From positions 1 through 36,309 of the IMG/VR virus record IMGVR_UViG_3300005519_000006: DNA of 36,309 nt; one strand, 5' to 3'. The position numbers and the translations under genes are program-made. Positions 1,943 through 28,651 of this stretch are shown here, one piece after another (the first letter of the stretch is position 1; each line of letters opens with the position of its first letter). The DNA comes from a virus. The notes under the pieces were generated by a model that worked only from the letters and a program-made list of their open reading frames with translations, was not told where the DNA came from and ran no database searches.

Positions 1943-2097
1943 CTCCCGACCAACTGGCAGAAGTACTCGAAGAAATCGCCGCTTGGCCTCTTGAAGAGCG
2001 CCGAGCTTACATAGCTAACCTCTCGATGACAAATCCCGAGGAAGCGCAGCAGGTAAAGGAAGGGCTCACTAAATTGTGGGCTGAGAGAAAGGGTTAA
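1939..2097 (+). CDS. Small hypothetical protein (52 aa)
   Basis: This short reading frame begins at the ATG that overlaps the dnaB stop (ATGA) and ends just before the SNF2 helicase gene. The product begins MTPDQLAEVLEEIAAWPLEERR and is acidic and helix-rich (EEAQQVKEGLTKLW near the end). It has no cysteines, no membrane segment and no recognised domain. The exact overlap with dnaB and the tight fit before the next ribosome binding site are the main reasons to believe it is expressed. It was found by hand. Function unknown. Confidence 0.6.
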   Translation: MTPDQLAEVLEEIAAWPLEERRAYIANLSMTNPEEAQQVKEGLTKLWAERKG

Positions 2098-2109
2098 GGG
2101 GATTGGGTG

Positions 2110-3543
2110 ATGGAAAGAACTGAAAACAGAGCCATTAGTAGTGCTTACAGCGACTACGAATCGTTCATCGCAGGTAAAGGGTTTCTGGACGTGCCGACCG
2201 GGTTTGATTGCGATGTGCCGGTAGGCCCGCTGTTCGACTTTCAGGCGGCCTGCGTCAAGTGGGCGCTTAAGCGTGGCCGCGCGGCTCTATTCGAAGACAC
2301 GGGCCTCGGCAAGACGCTGCAACAAACAACGTGGGCGAAATACGTCTGCGAACACACGGGCGGCAACGTCATCATCGCGGCTCCGCTGTGCGTTGCACAA
2401 CAGACCGTCGAAGAAGCGGCGAAGTTCGGTATCGCGATCAAATATTGCCGGCACGATTCCGAAGTCGAAGACGGCATCACGATCACGAACTACGAAATGC
2501 TCGAACACTTTGACCTCGAACAGTTCGTCGGCGTTGTGCTGGACGAAAGCTCGATTCTCAAAGCGCACAACAGCAAGACGCGAGCATTTATCACCGAAGC
2601 CTTCCGGCGCACCCCGTACAAGCTCTCGTGCACGGCGACGCCCAGCCCGAATGATTGGATGGAGCTTGGCAATCAGGCGGAATTTCTTGGCGTCATGTCG
2701 TCGGTCGAAATGCTGTCCACTTTCTTCACGCATGACGGCGGCGACACGGGCAACTGGCGCTTGAAGGGTCACGGCAAGGTCAAGTTCTGGGAATGGATGG
2801 CCACGTGGTCAATCTGCATCCGCAGCCCCGCCGACCTCGGCTTTGACGGATCGCGTTATCTATTGCCGCCTCTGGAACTGGTCGAGCATGTCGTCGAGAG
2901 CGACGCAGCCCCCGAAGGCCAGCTTTTCACCATCATCGCCCAAAGTCTAACGGAGCGCCGTCAAGCCAAGAAAAGCACGATTGACCAACGTATCGAACTC
3001 GCGGCAAGTATCACCAACGGGACGGACGAGCCGGTCATCGTGTGGTGCCATCTGAATGAGGAAAGCGAGCGCCTGACGAAGGCGATCCCGGGTGCGGTCG
3101 AAGTAACTGGCTCCATGAAGCCCGAACAGAAGGAAGCAAACATCATGGCCTTTGCCCATGGCGAGGCGCGCGTGATTGTTAGCAAGCCTTCGATCATGGG
3201 TTATGGCTTGAACCTGCAGCACGTGTGCCGGCGCATGGTGTTCGCCAGCATGGACGACAGCTTTGAATCCTATTACCAGGCTGTTCGCCGCTGCTATCGA
3301 TTCGGTCAGAACCGCCGCGTCATTGCACACATCATCACTGCCGATACGGAGGGTGCGGTGAAGGCGAACATCGCGCGCAAGCAGGCACAAAGCGACGCAA
3401 TGGCGGCCGAAATGGTTGGCCTGATGCGCGAGATAACCAAAAAGCAAATCGAAGGCGCCAAGAGCGGAACGGAAGCATACCGGCCTATGACGCCGCTAAC
3501 GATCCCCGCATGGATTCTGGACAACGTGGAGTACGCACAGTGA
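2110..3543 (+). CDS. SNF2/DEAD-like superfamily 2 helicase
   Basis: This is an ATP-dependent DNA translocase of the phage SNF2-like type, 477 residues from the ATG at 2110. A GTG three codons... one codon earlier at 2107 is also possible, but AAGGGG at 2096-2101 is better spaced for 2110. Visible motifs are a Q-like FDFQ, motif I EDTGLGKT (about 62-69), motif II VVLDESS (DESS at 145-148), motif III TATPSP (175-180) and motif VI QAVRRCYRFGQ near residue 395. The stop overlaps the GTG of the methyltransferase gene (GTGA at 3540), so the two are probably translated together. Such helicases are proposed to aid replication, recombination or protein removal from DNA; the precise role here is inference. 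Confidence 0.9.
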   Translation: MERTENRAISSAYSDYESFIAGKGFLDVPTGFDCDVPVGPLFDFQAACVKWALKRGRAALFEDTGLGKTLQQTTWAKYVCEHTGGNVIIAAPLCVAQQTVEEAAKFGIAIKYCRHDSEVEDGITITNYEMLEHFDLEQFVGVVLDESSILKAHNSKTRAFITEAFRRTPYKLSCTATPSPNDWMELGNQAEFLGVMSSVEMLSTFFTHDGGDTGNWRLKGHGKVKFWEWMATWSICIRSPADLGFDGSRYLLPPLELVEHVVESDAAPEGQLFTIIAQSLTERRQAKKSTIDQRIELAASITNGTDEPVIVWCHLNEESERLTKAIPGAVEVTGSMKPEQKEANIMAFAHGEARVIVSKPSIMGYGLNLQHVCRRMVFASMDDSFESYYQAVRRCYRFGQNRRVIAHIITADTEGAVKANIARKQAQSDAMAAEMVGLMREITKKQIEGAKSGTEAYRPMTPLTIPAWILDNVEYAQ

Positions 3544-4424
3544 ACTGCATCGCACAAGAAACTCACGATCGCTTCTCGATCTACAACATGGATTGCGTCG
3601 ACCTCGCAAAGTCGCTGCCGGAGAAATCGATCGATTTCTCGGTTTATTCGCCGCCATTTGAATCGCTGTTCGTGTTCAGCAATTCGGAGCGCGATATGGG
3701 GAATAACGCATCCAGCGCGGATTTCTGGACGCACTACCGGTTCCTGATCGCAGAACACATCCGCATCATGAAGCCGGGGCGCCTGGTGGCGATTCACTGC
3801 ATGCAACTTCCGACGTCTAAGGCTCGTGATGGGTATATCGGGCTGAAAGACTTCCGCGGTGAAATCATTCGCGCACATCAGGAAGCCGGATTTATCTATC
3901 ACTCGGAAGTGTGCATCTGGAAGGACCCAGTAGTCGCAATGCAGCGCACCAAGGCGCTCGGCCTGCTCTACAAGCAGCTCCGCAAGGATAGCGCCATGAG
4001 CCGACAAGGCATCGCGGATTACCTCGTCATCATGCGCAAGCCTGGCGAGAACCAGGAACCGGTAACGCACACGCATGAGAGCTTTCCGGTCGATATGTGG
4101 CAGCGCTACGCATCGCCAGTATGGATGGACATTAACCAATCCAAGACGCTGCAGTACATGAGTGCGCGCGAGAGCGACGACGAGCGCCATATCAGCCCTT
4201 TGCAGCTGGAGGTGATCGAGCGCGCAATCGAGCTATGGACGAACCCGAATGATTTGGTCTACACGCCATTCCTCGGCATCGGCAGCGAGGTCTACACGGC
4301 GCTGAAGATGGGCAGGCGCGGCATCGGGTCCGAACTCAAGTCTAGCTATTTCAAGCTGGCCGTCGAGAACTGCAAGAGTGCTGTCGTCGATAACCAGTCT
4401 GACCTGTTTCAGGAGGTCGCATGA
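3540..4424 (+). CDS. DNA methyltransferase, N4-cytosine/N6-adenine type (beta-class order)
   Basis: This is an S-adenosylmethionine-dependent exocyclic amino methyltransferase. The catalytic motif IV is SPPF (about residues 37-40), and the AdoMet-binding motif I, FLGIGSE, comes near the C terminus (about 244-250). The order IV then I is that of the beta class. An upstream ATG at 3510 exists, but the GTG at 3540 overlaps the helicase stop and has GGAG nine bases before it, so 294 residues is preferred. Recognition sequence and base specificity cannot be read from sequence; SPP- favours N4-cytosine, though assignments from this motif fail often. No restriction endonuclease lies beside it, so self-protection against host restriction or epigenetic marking is likely. 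Confidence 0.88.
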   Translation: MNCIAQETHDRFSIYNMDCVDLAKSLPEKSIDFSVYSPPFESLFVFSNSERDMGNNASSADFWTHYRFLIAEHIRIMKPGRLVAIHCMQLPTSKARDGYIGLKDFRGEIIRAHQEAGFIYHSEVCIWKDPVVAMQRTKALGLLYKQLRKDSAMSRQGIADYLVIMRKPGENQEPVTHTHESFPVDMWQRYASPVWMDINQSKTLQYMSARESDDERHISPLQLEVIERAIELWTNPNDLVYTPFLGIGSEVYTALKMGRRGIGSELKSSYFKLAVENCKSAVVDNQSDLFQEVA

Positions 4425-4558
4425 CTATCTCCAGCATCCCCAGAGTCCTCGAATTACTGCGGGACTATCGGAATTGGCCGCATTTTATTAATTGGGCGTG
4501 TTGCAGTACTAACGGATACTTGAGTGGCACTGACAGAACGGTGAGGTGGTGCAAATGA
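4421..4558 (+). CDS. Small hypothetical protein (45 aa)
   Basis: This short ORF is bounded by two ATGA overlaps: its ATG overlaps the methyltransferase stop (4421-4424) and its stop overlaps the start of the next gene (4555-4558). The product begins MTISSIPRVLELLRDYRNW and has two adjacent cysteines and several tryptophans. No domain is recognised. The local base composition is more AT-rich than its neighbours. It could merely couple translation between the two flanking genes. Function unknown. Confidence 0.5.
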   Translation: MTISSIPRVLELLRDYRNWPHFINWACCSTNGYLSGTDRTVRWCK

Positions 4559-4920
4559 TGTCGAGATCGAAAGAGCCAGAACGCGTGGCGGCGATGGTCC
4601 AAGCAATGCGCGAAAACGGGCCCATGTCGGTGCCAGAACTGGTTAAGGCAACCGGATGGTGTCACGAGACGATCCGCACGCAGATTCGCAAGTCGGCCGA
4701 CACATTCATGCAGATGAGCGATAGGACGCCCATATTCGGTGGATCGGTCGCCGCGATGTTCTACCTCACTAACAGCGCCCTCGGTATCACCGAAGAGGAA
4801 CTGGATCAGCGGGCAGACGAGATTTATCGCGACTTTTCGTGGTGGCCTAAAGCAGACGCAGTGGTCACATCAGCAATCAACGCAATGATTAAGGCAGGGG
4901 CACAAGCATGGCATCGGTAA
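4555..4920 (+). CDS. Winged-helix-like DNA-binding protein
   Basis: The 121-residue protein has a helix-turn-helix-like N-terminal half: [25 protein letters not shown], then [12 protein letters not shown] as the likely recognition helix. This resembles MarR/ArsR-style or replication-associated winged helices. The C-terminal half (about 60-121) is not recognised. The ATG at 4555 is chosen because it overlaps the previous stop and lies downstream of GGTGAGGTGG; a GTG at 4546 and an ATG at 4558 are alternatives. Its 3' end overlaps the ssb start by 13 bases. It may regulate the early genes or act with SSB and helicase; this is inference. Confidence 0.6.
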
Positions 4921-5376: not shown

Positions 5377-5757
5377 ATGATGACCAGAGACCAAGCCATC
5401 GCCGCCGGACTGAAGGTTTATGAGACGGGCAAGCCATGCAAGCACGGTCACATCGCTCCGCGCTTTGTTTGCAACATGAACTGCGTCGAATGCCATCGCC
5501 ATGTGAGGCGCAAATCAGCGCCGCCAACTATGTCCAGCGAGACATTTGGAAAGCGCCTCACCAAGTTGCGCAAGCGCCTGAAGTTGTCGCAGGAGGAGCT
5601 GGCTCAGAGGGCGCGCGTGAGTGCTCGCAGCATCTGGAATTACGAGTCGGATCAGAAGTTGCCGCATTACTGGCAATTGATCGAACTGGCAAAGCAGCTG
5701 AATACGTCGCTGGACTACTTGTGCTGCCGGACGGCGCGTAGGAGAGACTTTATATGA
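5377..5757 (+). CDS. Zinc-knuckle plus XRE-type HTH regulator
   Basis: The 126-residue protein joins two short domains. Residues about 18-42 carry GKPCKHGH then CNMNCVECHR, a Cys/His cluster common in phage proteins beside HNH or other nucleases. From about residue 52 there is a clean XRE/Cro-CI helix-turn-helix: LRKRLKLSQEELAQRARVSARSIWNYE. The start at 5377 follows GAGGAG at 5365-5370. An internal ATG at 5530 could give a stand-alone HTH. The stop overlaps the next ORF (ATGA at 5754). As no CI-type repressor is visible in the window, it could be the early-gene regulator. The pairing of the two domains is unusual. Confidence 0.75.
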   Translation: MMTRDQAIAAGLKVYETGKPCKHGHIAPRFVCNMNCVECHRHVRRKSAPPTMSSETFGKRLTKLRKRLKLSQEELAQRARVSARSIWNYESDQKLPHYWQLIELAKQLNTSLDYLCCRTARRRDFI

Positions 5758-5945
5758 ACGCCCCACTACCTGAACCCACGCAACTCGTCATCGGGCTTAC
5801 TCATAAGGAAATGCTCGCGTGGATGGCAGATAACGGCATCTTCTGTTCAACCGACAAGTTCACGCGCCTGCTTCAGGAAGCGCAGCGCCGGGCGCTGGCC
5901 GATCAGGCGATGACGAAGAGTGAAGATAAGGAGAAGGTGGCATGA
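5754..5945 (+). CDS. Small hypothetical protein (63 aa)
   Basis: The ORF is linked by 4-base overlaps to both neighbours (ATGA at 5754 and at 5942). The product, MNAPLPEPTQLVIGLTHKEM onward, has a helical middle (MLAWMADNGIFCSTDKFTRLLQEAQRR written here in parts: MLAWMADNG, then FTRLLQEAQRR) and a charged tail. There is no signal peptide or membrane segment, and no domain is recognised. Conserved spacing and good codon use support a real gene. Confidence 0.6.
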   Translation: MNAPLPEPTQLVIGLTHKEMLAWMADNGIFCSTDKFTRLLQEAQRRALADQAMTKSEDKEKVA

Positions 5946-6880
5946 AGGCGGTTTCGGATTCTGGAATCTATGCCATTACTAGTCCGTCTGGAAAGCAATA
6001 CATTGGACAAGCGTCTTCCATTATGAAACGGTGGATTGACCATCGATGGGCACTCAAAGCGGGTAAGCATCACTGCAAGGGTCTTCAAAGCGCATGGAAC
6101 AAGTATGGGAAGGAGGCGCTGATATTTTCAGTGCTTTCTTACGATCCAATCGAACTTCTTAACGAGCGCGAGCAGGCCGAGATAAACGCCCGGCCTCGCC
6201 ACATGCTCTACAACGGGGCGACGCTGGTTCGCACGCCAATGCTGGGGCGCAAGCATACGAAAACAACCCGCCAACTGATGTCGAATCAGCGACGCGGAGA
6301 AAACCATCCAAATTGGGGCAAGAAGCGCGATCCTGAAACGGTAGAAAAAATGAGGTTGTCTAAGGTCGGGAAAAAGCTAACACCAGAGCACGCGGCCGCA
6401 ATTTCAGCCGCTCTAAAGGGCCGATTTACCGGAGAGCAGCACTCTAGTTTCGGAAAAGTCCTTTCCGCTGAGTCAAGGGCGAGGCTGTCCGCAGCGACGA
6501 AGGGTGAAAGGAACCCTAACTGGGGGAAAGTTTTTAGTGCCGAGGTGAGGGCCAAGATGTCAGCCGCTCAAAAGGCCAGAGGTCCGCGACCGCCCAGCGA
6601 AGCTCATCGGCTTGCCACGAGACTGGCAAAGCAAAACATGACGCCAGAGCAGAAAGAGCGGATGGCAGCAAAGATGCGCGGAGCAAACAATGTGGTTGCA
6701 AGGGCTGTGCGGTGCGTAGACACGGGCATGGAATTCGTGACCGGTGTAGCGGCTGAGCAATGGCTCCGCACGAGCGGCAAGGAAAAGGCCAGTCGATCTG
6801 CAATATGCATGGCTTGCCAAGGGAAGAAAGCGTCAGCCTACGGCTATCGATGGGAATACGTGAACAAGGACAATAAATGA
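5942..6880 (+). CDS. GIY-YIG homing-type endonuclease with NUMOD3 repeats
   Basis: The catalytic GIY-YIG domain lies at the N terminus (GIY at 8-10, YIG at 20-22, Arg30, EREQ around 75-78 with the likely metal-binding Glu). The middle (about 105-225) has NUMOD3-type DNA-binding repeats, visible as GENHPNWGK, GEQHSSFGK and GERNPNWGK, each followed by a KMS/RLS-type helix. The C terminus (about 245-305) resembles a NUMOD1-like module, with VRCVDTGMEF and YGYRWEY. The 312 residues fit freestanding phage homing endonucleases. The nucleotide sequence is more AT-rich than its neighbours, consistent with recent mobility. It is linked by ATGA overlaps at both ends, so it interrupts no gene. Confidence 0.9.
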   Translation: MKAVSDSGIYAITSPSGKQYIGQASSIMKRWIDHRWALKAGKHHCKGLQSAWNKYGKEALIFSVLSYDPIELLNEREQAEINARPRHMLYNGATLVRTPMLGRKHTKTTRQLMSNQRRGENHPNWGKKRDPETVEKMRLSKVGKKLTPEHAAAISAALKGRFTGEQHSSFGKVLSAESRARLSAATKGERNPNWGKVFSAEVRAKMSAAQKARGPRPPSEAHRLATRLAKQNMTPEQKERMAAKMRGANNVVARAVRCVDTGMEFVTGVAAEQWLRTSGKEKASRSAICMACQGKKASAYGYRWEYVNKDNK

Positions 6881-11957: not shown

Positions 11958-12198
11958 GCAGTTCGGGCGTGTGACAATTGACTACGACAGGCGCGGCGTC
12001 GCAATCACTGTCGATGGTTTCGAGTTCTCCGGCGCTGGCACGTGTCGGCAGCATGTTGGCAAGGCATTGGCATGGGCTAGGGACGCGTTGGACGTTGAGA
12101 TCGCGGCGATTCGCCTATCGCCGGGCGGCCACATCAGATCATGTACCGACCTCGATCAGCGGATGCTAGATGAGCAGCGCAATGAGGAAACCAGATGA
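11914..12198 (+). CDS. Hypothetical protein (94 aa)
   Basis: The start at 11914 has AAGGGG seven bases upstream (11903-11908), a good site. The product has beta-rich stretches (GRVTIDYDRRGVAITVDGFEF) and one helix (HVGKALAWARDAL). No catalytic motif, membrane segment or known family is recognised. The stop overlaps the next tiny ORF (ATGA at 12195). Confidence 0.65.
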   Translation: MAGMVLRDLDYSDLEQFGRVTIDYDRRGVAITVDGFEFSGAGTCRQHVGKALAWARDALDVEIAAIRLSPGGHIRSCTDLDQRMLDEQRNEETR

Positions 12199-12290
12199 AC
12201 CCGGTGACAGCGTATCTCCTACTGCTAGCCACGATCAGCATGGGCACGACGCAAGTACTGATCGACCTGGCGGAAGGCTGGGATTTGTGA
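12195..12290 (+). CDS. Tiny hydrophobic peptide (31 aa)
   Basis: The ORF overlaps the previous stop (ATGA) and the next GTG (GTGA at 12287). The peptide MNPVTAYLLLLATISMGTTQ plus a short acidic end contains one hydrophobic stretch, so it may be a membrane peptide. It is short, and overlap is the only positional support. It is too short to be called a holin. Confidence 0.35.
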   Translation: MNPVTAYLLLLATISMGTTQVLIDLAEGWDL

Positions 12291-12397: not shown

Positions 12398-12452
12398 TGT
12401 ACGATTTTCCGCCCGTGTACGAAAATTTCGTACAGGCCGCAGAAATCGTACA
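12398..12452. repeat. Symmetric array of four TGTACGA half-sites
   Basis: Two nested inverted repeats share one axis at 12425. The outer arms are TGTACGATTT (12398-12407) and AAATCGTACA (12443-12452). The inner arms are TGTACGAAA (12416-12424) and TTTCGTACA (12426-12434). The spacers between outer and inner arms are exactly 8 bases on each side and are not complementary, so the symmetry is in the sites, as in an operator. A weak promoter (TTGTAC 12397-12402, GAAAAT 12421-12426) could lie within it. Confidence 0.8.
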
Positions 12453-12459
12453 CGGCACG

Positions 12460-12865
12460 AACAAGGGTGGTAGCGCAGGGCGCAGGCCGGATGCGCGAAC
12501 CCGTAACATGCAGCGAACATGCCGGGAGAAGAGACCGGACAATTCAAGGTGTAGCAACCGGCGGACCGGGATGCTACGAAGCCCACCAAGAAAGTAGTGC
12601 TGGTGCCGAACTGATCAGCGGCCGATCGCCTCACGAAACGAGGCCCTTCATGAATTGCGCTCGGCTTAATCTGCTGAGGGGCGCGACCGGTTAGCGCATT
12701 AACCTGGGGCTGCCGGGCGCAATCCACGAAGGTGAAATTAGCGACGCGCCTGGCGATAGCCACCCACGGGTCACGCGGTCGCGCGAAAGTAGCTTTCACC
12801 CTGTCTCTTCGTGCCGACTCCCCCTCGTCGTCATGATCTGCCCGCTTCGGCGGGCTTTTTTATTT
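12460..12865 (+). ncRNA. Candidate structured non-coding RNA or late leader RNA
   Basis: Successive helices can be drawn by eye. They include GCGCA/TGCGC (12480-12496); GTAGCA/TGCTAC enclosing CCGG-CGGA-CCGG (12551-12577); CACCA/TGGTG (12584-12605); GCCTC/GAGGC (12628-12644); and GGTTA/TAACC (12689-12704). A 13-bp stem pairs CACGAAGGTGAAA (12725-12737) with TTTCACC (12794-12800) and TTCGTG (12808-12813). It encloses GCGAC-GCG/CGC-G-GTCGC (12741-12782) and TGGC-GATA-GCCA (12751-12762). The element ends in a UUCG terminator. The 5' end is not known. It could be a stand-alone RNA or a leader controlling late read-through. It matches no RNA family I can name. Confidence 0.5.
12840..12865 (+). terminator. 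Intrinsic terminator with UUCG tetraloop
   Basis: GCCCGC (12840-12845), loop TTCG, GCGGGC (12850-12855), then TTTTTTATTT. This is a textbook intrinsic terminator at the end of the non-coding interval and 11 bases before the next gene start, so it would have to be read through for expression of that gene from upstream. Confidence 0.92.
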
Positions 12866-12875
12866 GGTGCGACCG

Positions 12876-13262
12876 ATGACGCGCAAACCCAAGACGACAT
12901 CGGCGCAATGGCTCGGAATCCCGGTTTTCCCGATCCCGATCTTCGGCGGCAAACTCGTGCTATGCACTGCGGCTGAAGAGTGGGACACGGCAGCGACAGC
13001 GTTTGGCGATGTGACTGGCACAGACGGCTGCAAGGGTCTGGCGATGCGCTACTACAGCGAGGAGCATGGCCGGGTCTATGCAATTGGCGTGTTCGACAAG
13101 GCTGTTGACACGCTCGTCCACGAGTTGGCGCACGCGACATTCTTTCTGCTGGGCGATGTCGGCATTCCTGTTTCCTCTGGCGAGGATAACGAGTCGTTCA
13201 CCTACGTCTTGGGCTGGTTGATGCGGGAAGTGTTCCCCGTGTTTCAGGCTGCAGTCAAATAA
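12876..13262 (+). CDS. Zinc metallopeptidase-like protein (HExxH)
   Basis: The 128-residue product contains VHELAHATF (His82, Glu83, His86), the zincin signature, and a downstream acidic stretch EDNES (103-107) that could supply the third ligand. Similar short HE..H proteins are frequent in phages; substrate unknown. The ATG at 12876 is chosen, but TTG 12864 and GTG 12867 are in frame and no site has a strong ribosome binding site. The gene begins right after a strong terminator. It may process a head or tail protein or act on host proteins; this is inference. Confidence 0.7.
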   Translation: MTRKPKTTSAQWLGIPVFPIPIFGGKLVLCTAAEEWDTAATAFGDVTGTDGCKGLAMRYYSEEHGRVYAIGVFDKAVDTLVHELAHATFFLLGDVGIPVSSGEDNESFTYVLGWLMREVFPVFQAAVK

Positions 13263-23700: not shown

Positions 23701-23754
23701 TCTGCGGATAGGTTGCGCAACCGACAAGCGTGCCCCCTGTCACGTTTCCGCAGA
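23701..23754 (+). other. RNA hairpin structure after the major capsid gene
   Basis: TCTGCGGA (23701-23708) and TCCGCAGA (23747-23754) pair over 8 bases and enclose the perfect palindrome GGTTGCGCAACC (23711-23722). No T-tract follows, so it is not a simple terminator. It may protect the capsid message or control passage into the next gene. Confidence 0.6.
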
Positions 23755-23786
23755 CTCCAATACAGGGATAACCAACAGGGAATGTC

Positions 23787-28568: not shown

Positions 28569-28620
28569 GCCACGGCTAGGGACGCGACCCAAAAGCCGGC
28601 ACCTTACCGGTTGCCGTGGC
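28569..28620 (+). other. RNA hairpin structure after the tail tube gene
   Basis: GCCACGGC (28569-28576) and GCCGTGGC (28613-28620) are perfect 8-base complements. They enclose AGCCGG/CCGGTT (28594-28599, 28607-28612; one G-U pair) with a 7-base loop. No T-tract follows. The architecture matches that after the capsid gene at 23701. Confidence 0.6.
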
Positions 28621-28651
28621 TTCTCATAAGGCTCAGTTGAAGGGATTGAGA

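Follow-up and report, generated by a model that had tools for sequence, protein, structure and literature searches.

Orphan operator of AbiEi_2 type at the head of a phage RNA array, a probable binding site for a host antitoxin and candidate decoy

Antitoxins of the AbiE type are described as repressing their own operons by means of inverted repeats (PMC3985639, PMC7319586). The abiE system of Streptococcus agalactiae is reported to encode a winged-helix antitoxin, which represses its own operon by way of inverted repeats that overlap the promoter, and after it a DUF1814 nucleotidyltransferase; the operator is given as two 23-bp repeats placed 3 bp apart before abiEi (PMC3985639). The operator of Mycobacterium tuberculosis Rv2827c, an AbiEi-like self-repressing antitoxin, is described as four repeats that form two consecutive pairs before the antitoxin gene (PMC7319586). 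The element analyzed here is located in a viral stretch of 36,309 nucleotides, which is referred to in its full length as the window. It has four repeats, as the Rv2827c operator does, but they are nested on one axis, and it differs from the S. agalactiae system in being an orphan phage copy with two GTACG motifs per arm, no detected AbiE gene, and no promoter-like box.

The four TGTACGA half-sites noticed in an earlier sequence-only reading of this DNA were confirmed in mirror arrangement, as two nested inverted repeats with a common axis at 12425 (Table 1). The 8-base spacers were also confirmed, the outer arms extend to 10 bp (TGTACGATTT and AAATCGTACA), and the inner pair of half-sites forms a 19-bp palindrome. 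A search of the window for further pairs returned seven TGTACGA in total, against 2.11 expected (seven were reached in 1 of 100 shuffles), and the three outside the element are single and scattered. The weak promoter pair (TTGTAC, GAAAAT) proposed to overlap the element did not hold up, with no sigma-70-like site between 12000 and 13000 where 0.4 would be expected. The element sits after an ORF of 31 aa and before the structured RNA region, 3' of which come the phrog_1365 gene, an exonuclease gene, and the terminase region in this order. A homing endonuclease gene (phrog_314) is present among the early genes of the window at 5942-6880.

Table 1. Features of the window in and around the four-half-site element
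Feature	Position	Strand	Remark
Orphan four-half-site operator (AbiEi_2 type, GTACG lettering)	12398..12452		53-bp core at 12399-12451
Outer left half-site TGTACGA	12398..12404	+	Arm reaches 12407
Inner left half-site TGTACGA	12416..12422	+	Seen in the sequence
Inner right half-site TGTACGA	12428..12434	-	Seen in the sequence
Outer right half-site TGTACGA	12446..12452	-	Arm from 12443
31-aa ORF just 5' of the site	12195..12290	+	48-77% identity in relatives
Structured non-coding RNA region	12453..12839	+	No Rfam family at gathering score
Covarying hairpin GC-NN-GAACCCGUAAC-NN-GC	12493..12511	+	Window stem is the least regular and holds the one unpaired cell
Intrinsic terminator closing the RNA region	12840..12863	+	Seen in the sequence
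phrog_1365 gene after the terminator	12876..13262	+	Served to find relatives

Related phages were sought both by pattern and through the protein encoded downstream. No copy of the exact full TGTACGA geometry was returned from the IMG/VR viral contigs, and a looser core (gaps 11-14 / 7 / 11-14) gave seven stretches in 2.9 million contigs: L005, L009, and L010, which hold one identical site, L007, L008, L011, which is the L004 contig again, and L006, left out as a tandem repeat. L004 (G003) came from the search with the downstream protein, independently of the pattern, and carries the same element; L002 and L003, obtained with the same protein, lack it. The core kept in relatives is GTACG-13-GTACG-7-CGTAC-13-CGTAC. 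Conservation in relatives, which had been proposed as a check, is patchy: exactly one copy is present in the window and in each of G003, G004, G006, G007, G008 (20,000 of 20,205 bases searched), and G009, and none in the contigs G001 and G002. The locus is present without the site in G001, G002, L043, and prophage L179, and no site was found in the stretches examined of prophage relatives L178 to L182, of which L178 stops before the locus.

Between the window and G003, the core is identical at 20 of 20 positions and the other positions at 20 of 33 (p = 0.0007); an intact core is a precondition for the lineages found by pattern, and L004 alone is free of that condition. Recurrence across the window, L004, L005/L009/L010, L007, and L008 therefore amounts to five phage lineages, each carrying the GTACG site once and always beside a tRNA/ncRNA array. 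L008 comes from a 129-kb phage contig with 30 tRNA genes in the stretch examined, where a GOLLD RNA is also present and the element is placed between two tRNA-Leu genes. In G007, a contig of 129,556 bases, roughly 340 bp separate the site from the conserved hairpin. The half-site core is stable among the lineages and the spacers are variable. Searches of phages and plasmids by blastn, using the array region and the element, returned nothing useful.

The bacterial counterpart was found by a core-pattern scan of 84,980 genomes, which returned 27 stretches. In 11 of 12 Burkholderiaceae hits, and likewise in two Bipolaricaulota contigs, the 53-bp element closely precedes an AbiEi_2 gene, behind which comes an AbiEii gene; the exception (L057) is a Burkholderiaceae genome in which no AbiEi was detected. 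One 482-base stretch (L071) was left unclassified, and the other 12 of the 27 hits (Streptomyces, other actinobacteria, and Paenibacillus) have no AbiEi, several of the AbiEi-less hits being tandem repeats or long perfect palindromes. The antitoxin (PF09952, AbiEi_2) and toxin (PF08843, AbiEii nucleotidyltransferase) of the host operons both scored above the Pfam cut-off. PADLOC and NCBIfam assigned no AbiE or NCBIfam model to the pair and gave a weak candidate, PDC-M21B, for one toxin.

AbiEi homologs were detected in 111 of 398 Burkholderiaceae genomes, and 79 distinct AbiEi upstream regions were surveyed (28 best-match loci, L080 from Bipolaricaulota, 39 further regions left after one of 40 proved a duplicate, and the 11 pattern-found loci). 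With the operator defined as nested GTNC/GNAC at spacings of 17-19 / 12-14 / 17-19, the nested four-half-site operator is present in 63 of the 79, against 0/79 reversed and 0/1580 shuffled controls. Without the pattern-found loci, some of which recur among the remaining regions as the same genome, the count is 53/68. The letters of the operator vary by clade (GTACG; GTTCAC with GTACA; TGTCCA; TGTTCA). Plasmid-borne AbiEi genes have the same nested geometry in six of ten cases (the Bacteroidota Spirosoma, Hymenobacter, and Persicobacter, the cyanobacterium Synechococcus, Pantoea, and Paraburkholderia), and two Vibrio plasmid loci have, by eye, a similar symmetric layout in other letters. The upstream and plasmid surveys indicate that the nested operator is, at the sequence level, a general property of the AbiEi_2 antitoxin family, the GTACG lettering of which is that of the phage element.

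Several further arrangements were seen in the bacterial loci. In Paraburkholderia saeva (L052), a second four-site operator at 1821-1873 precedes the first by 97 bp; an operator is likewise seen at several other AbiEi genes, some 90-100 bp ahead of their start. Three Burkholderiaceae chromosomes without a detected AbiEi gene carry orphan operators (L183 at 3965, L184 at 4001, and L186 at 4009). In the L185 chromosome the AbiEi gene behind the operator appears by eye to be broken shortly after its start, near 4060-4140, and the operator beside it is intact.

When a matrix of host operators was applied to the phages, the site was the best hit in every carrier, with 14.9 to 55.0 bits against at most 2.8 elsewhere, and the best hits in non-carriers scored -5.2 and -5.3. 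The phage element thus has both the geometry and the lettering of host AbiEi_2 operators. In the host operators a TACNNT box, presumably the promoter of the operon, overlaps the inner right half-site; it was present in all 51 host operators taken from the AbiEi upstream survey, and the slot ends in T in 11 of 12 host GTACG operators. The five phage GTACG copies all lack TACNNT in either orientation (p = 0.001 versus hosts). In the G004 group, the left half of the copy agrees with the host consensus at 26 of 28 positions when it is read opposite to the array, and this copy therefore seems to descend from a host operator. The phage contigs gave no AbiE match (best E 0.51), and none was found in viral contigs, searched with a GTACG-clade protein and its alignment, or in 50,697 phage records. 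As no AbiEi-AbiEii pair was detected downstream in the phages, the site is an orphan and not the operator of an abiE operon. Identity of the element as a copy of an AbiEi operator is well supported by these sequence comparisons, and it is very probably a binding site of AbiEi type.

The sequence-only reading had interpreted the element as a multi-dimer operator beside a structured non-coding element, which stands, and had named phage proteins that might bind it, which does not. An operator of a phage-encoded regulator (XRE, HTH, or another) controlling the ncRNA would be a common arrangement beside an RNA gene, and the window does encode both an XRE protein (by PHROGs) and an HTH protein (a label from the earlier note). 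The XRE protein (5377-5754), however, was found in only one of nine relative records searched, the site-less G002, and the HTH protein (4546-4920) is in the site-less G002 and in the G004/G008/G009 group and is missing from G003, G006, and G007. The site and either regulator thus do not go together among the relatives, as judged on contigs that may be fragments. No searched window protein is common to all site carriers, and the element matches the operator of a different, bacterial family, which leaves a phage regulator as a very improbable owner of the site.

A second operator lettering was sought in IMG/VR with the pattern TGTYCA-N11-TGTYCAC-N5-GTGDACA-N11-TGRACA, which gave 45 stretches with 36 distinct sites. 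None of the 45 loci had a profile match to AbiEi or AbiEii, the profiles being built from Burkholderiaceae, so that distant AbiE genes could be missed; around 16 of the 45 sites, 20 neighbouring proteins were compared with Pfam and gave no AbiE. TACNNT is absent from all of these viral sites in either orientation, and several, with AACNNT in its place, might nonetheless function as promoters. Of the 53 positions of the L219 site, 41 agree with a Hymenobacter host operator. Thirteen sites lie at most 14 bp from a tRNA gene, and no other locus has any tRNA in the stretch examined. Against a background rate of 1.9% for a tRNA gene at 60 bp or less, this gives a binomial p of 2e-12, computed on contigs that are not independent and hold 10 distinct sites among the 13. 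The other 32 sites are not beside tRNAs in the stretches examined, which weakens a specific link to arrays. GOLLD RNAs were located in L008 at 2033-2497 (-) and in L212 at 3190-3603 (+), both of them contigs with an orphan operator and a tRNA array.

An RNA- or DNA-structural element (hairpin, cruciform, protelomerase-like, replication or packaging site) would agree with the nested palindrome, its position at the head of the structured RNA region, and its single copy per genome. Mirror pairing outside the half-sites nevertheless reaches only 4-9 of 16 positions in single phages, and with so little arm pairing the constraint looks like that of a protein-binding sequence and not of a stem. Spacer pairing over the 36 elements of the second lettering is 0.40 where 0.37 is expected, and the terminase neighbours do not track the site, so that the replication or packaging role suggested earlier found no support and a structural function of any kind is highly doubtful. 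A protelomerase target is a near-perfect palindrome that occurs together with a protelomerase gene; the window pairs 9 of 16 non-core mirror positions, no protelomerase was named among the 30 window proteins scanned, and this candidate was rejected.

Arm-type sites of an integrase were considered in connection with a relaxed three-site scan, in which the AT-rich phages L109 and L111 showed, by eye, clustered TGTACGCA repeats beside an apparent integrase gene. These repeats are arranged differently from the element, and PHROGs named no integrase among the 30 window proteins scanned (one 'transposase' match, phrog_513, was returned), making this the most remote of the explanations weighed. The TGTACGCA clusters, at 3390-3440 in L109 and at 2512-2575 and 2825-2850 in L111, are possibly arm-type sites in their own phages; both were set aside as integrase-type repeats, and L110 from the same scan was taken as chance.

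The RNA region adjoining the element was compared among phages. Two adjacent hairpins are common to 12 phage sequences, and the loop of the second, GAACCCGUAAC, is invariant but for one GAACCCGUACC. In the second stem 98.3% of cells pair, and 12 are changed on both sides, compared with 4.1 in shuffles and 0 in slid controls. The motif also occurs at 1860-1882 in L005, at about 5840-5865 on the - strand in L008, and in others, including Bcep22-like Burkholderia phages, where L038 matches BcepMigl, BcepIL02, DC1, CSP3, and JC1. Rfam searches of the window and the array gave no array family at gathering score, low-scoring matches (mir-3747, S6 leader, tRNA-Sec, and others) were taken as chance, and ARAGORN predicted no tRNA gene in the window array. 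Two int-alpA RNA matches (RF02996) in the window, at 23701-23767 and 28569-28632, lie in the structural gene region and far from any integrase named there.

The profile of the AbiEii toxin matches PDB chain 8an4 (E 5.5e-5), listed as a toxin of the AbiEii/AbiGii family, which we take to be MenT1. MenT toxins are described as adding nucleotides to tRNA acceptor ends (PMC10435456; PMC11541572), with a preference of MenT3 for tRNA-Ser (PMC11541572). The predicted model of the AbiEi antitoxin (pLDDT 80.8, pTM 0.58) contains a winged-helix-like segment at 142-228 (best Z 8.8, rmsd 2.9, 75 aligned). Foldseek returned no match to this model at E <= 0.001, and the solved AbiEi and Rv2827c structures were not among the matches listed. 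A PDB sequence search with the antitoxin profile gave one match (E 0.011), which was taken as chance.

The reading that we prefer, with a probability of roughly 60%, sees in the element an orphan site for AbiEi binding, used most likely as a decoy and less probably as a gate that controls the RNA array. It would be an isolated copy of the operator through which a type IV toxin-antitoxin operon (AbiEi_2/AbiEii) regulates itself. The AbiEi that binds it would be that of the host; none of the phage's own was found. Following published AbiEi binding, TGTACG...TGTACG and its mirror copy would form a pair of inverted repeats, each about 24 bp long and separated by 5-7 bp. With the half-sites kept and the promoter-like box missing, the site could be bound without starting a toxin-antitoxin transcript. 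As a decoy, multiplying phage DNA would draw AbiEi off the abiE operator and upset the toxin-antitoxin balance, and the adjoining phage RNA genes could replace tRNAs hit by the toxin, a putative target. As a gate, which would be a second use, AbiEi bound before or inside the array would block read-through until AbiEi falls. We infer AbiEi binding, titration or gating, and the benefit to the phage.

If the site is accepted as one of AbiEi type, the decoy has about an even chance, and it is favoured over the gate because site positions vary and 32 of the 45 TGTYCA sites are not beside tRNAs in the stretches examined. Its benefit is not obvious, since a repressor drawn off its operator raises toxin and antitoxin alike. 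The gate is the less likely use, and it keeps its share because each of the five phage sites in GTACG lettering has an array next to it. Smaller still is the chance that the site is a relic, with a toxin-antitoxin operon once present in these phages, its genes lost, and a functionless operator left. This reading keeps some weight because orphan operators occur in the three chromosomes without detected AbiEi (L183, L184, and L186); the operator before the broken gene of L185 and the patchy occurrence of the site among phage relatives also speak for it. The intact core shared by the window and G003 amid diverged surroundings speaks against it, as do recurrence in five GTACG lineages and at 36 distinct sites of the second lettering, placement between tRNA genes, and the failure to find an AbiE gene in the viral contigs and phage records searched.

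An orphan AbiEi site would have parallels in two known phage strategies. Phages carry boxes for host regulators, for example LexA boxes, and so hold the DNA site of a host repressor; here, by comparison, the repressor would be the antitoxin of a toxin-antitoxin system, and the site is without a promoter-like box. Phage tRNA arrays act as counter-defence, in that tRNA-targeting immunity is met by phage tRNA genes; in the present case the array contains a putative DNA target of the protein that regulates such a toxin. The idea that phage tRNA genes counter tRNA-targeting immunity is also put forward in PMC12409363. The open-access literature, as far as its texts were available, yielded no account of toxin-antitoxin operators carried by phages.

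AbiE has been ranked as the fourth most abundant phage defence system (PMC11375011), and the element suggests that a virus captures or senses a host antitoxin protein. More tentatively, phages of several bacterial phyla may carry promoterless operators of tRNA-modifying type IV toxin-antitoxin systems in their tRNA/ncRNA arrays as antitoxin decoys or sensors, which would constitute a protein-free counter-defence of 53 bp of DNA. If the site binds AbiEi, phages would manipulate an abundant defence system by bare DNA sequence, a type of counter-defence that is easily missed. A sequence rule for the operators of the whole antitoxin family would predict which phages meet which toxin-antitoxin system, and phage tRNA arrays would be linked to a toxin family known to attack tRNAs.
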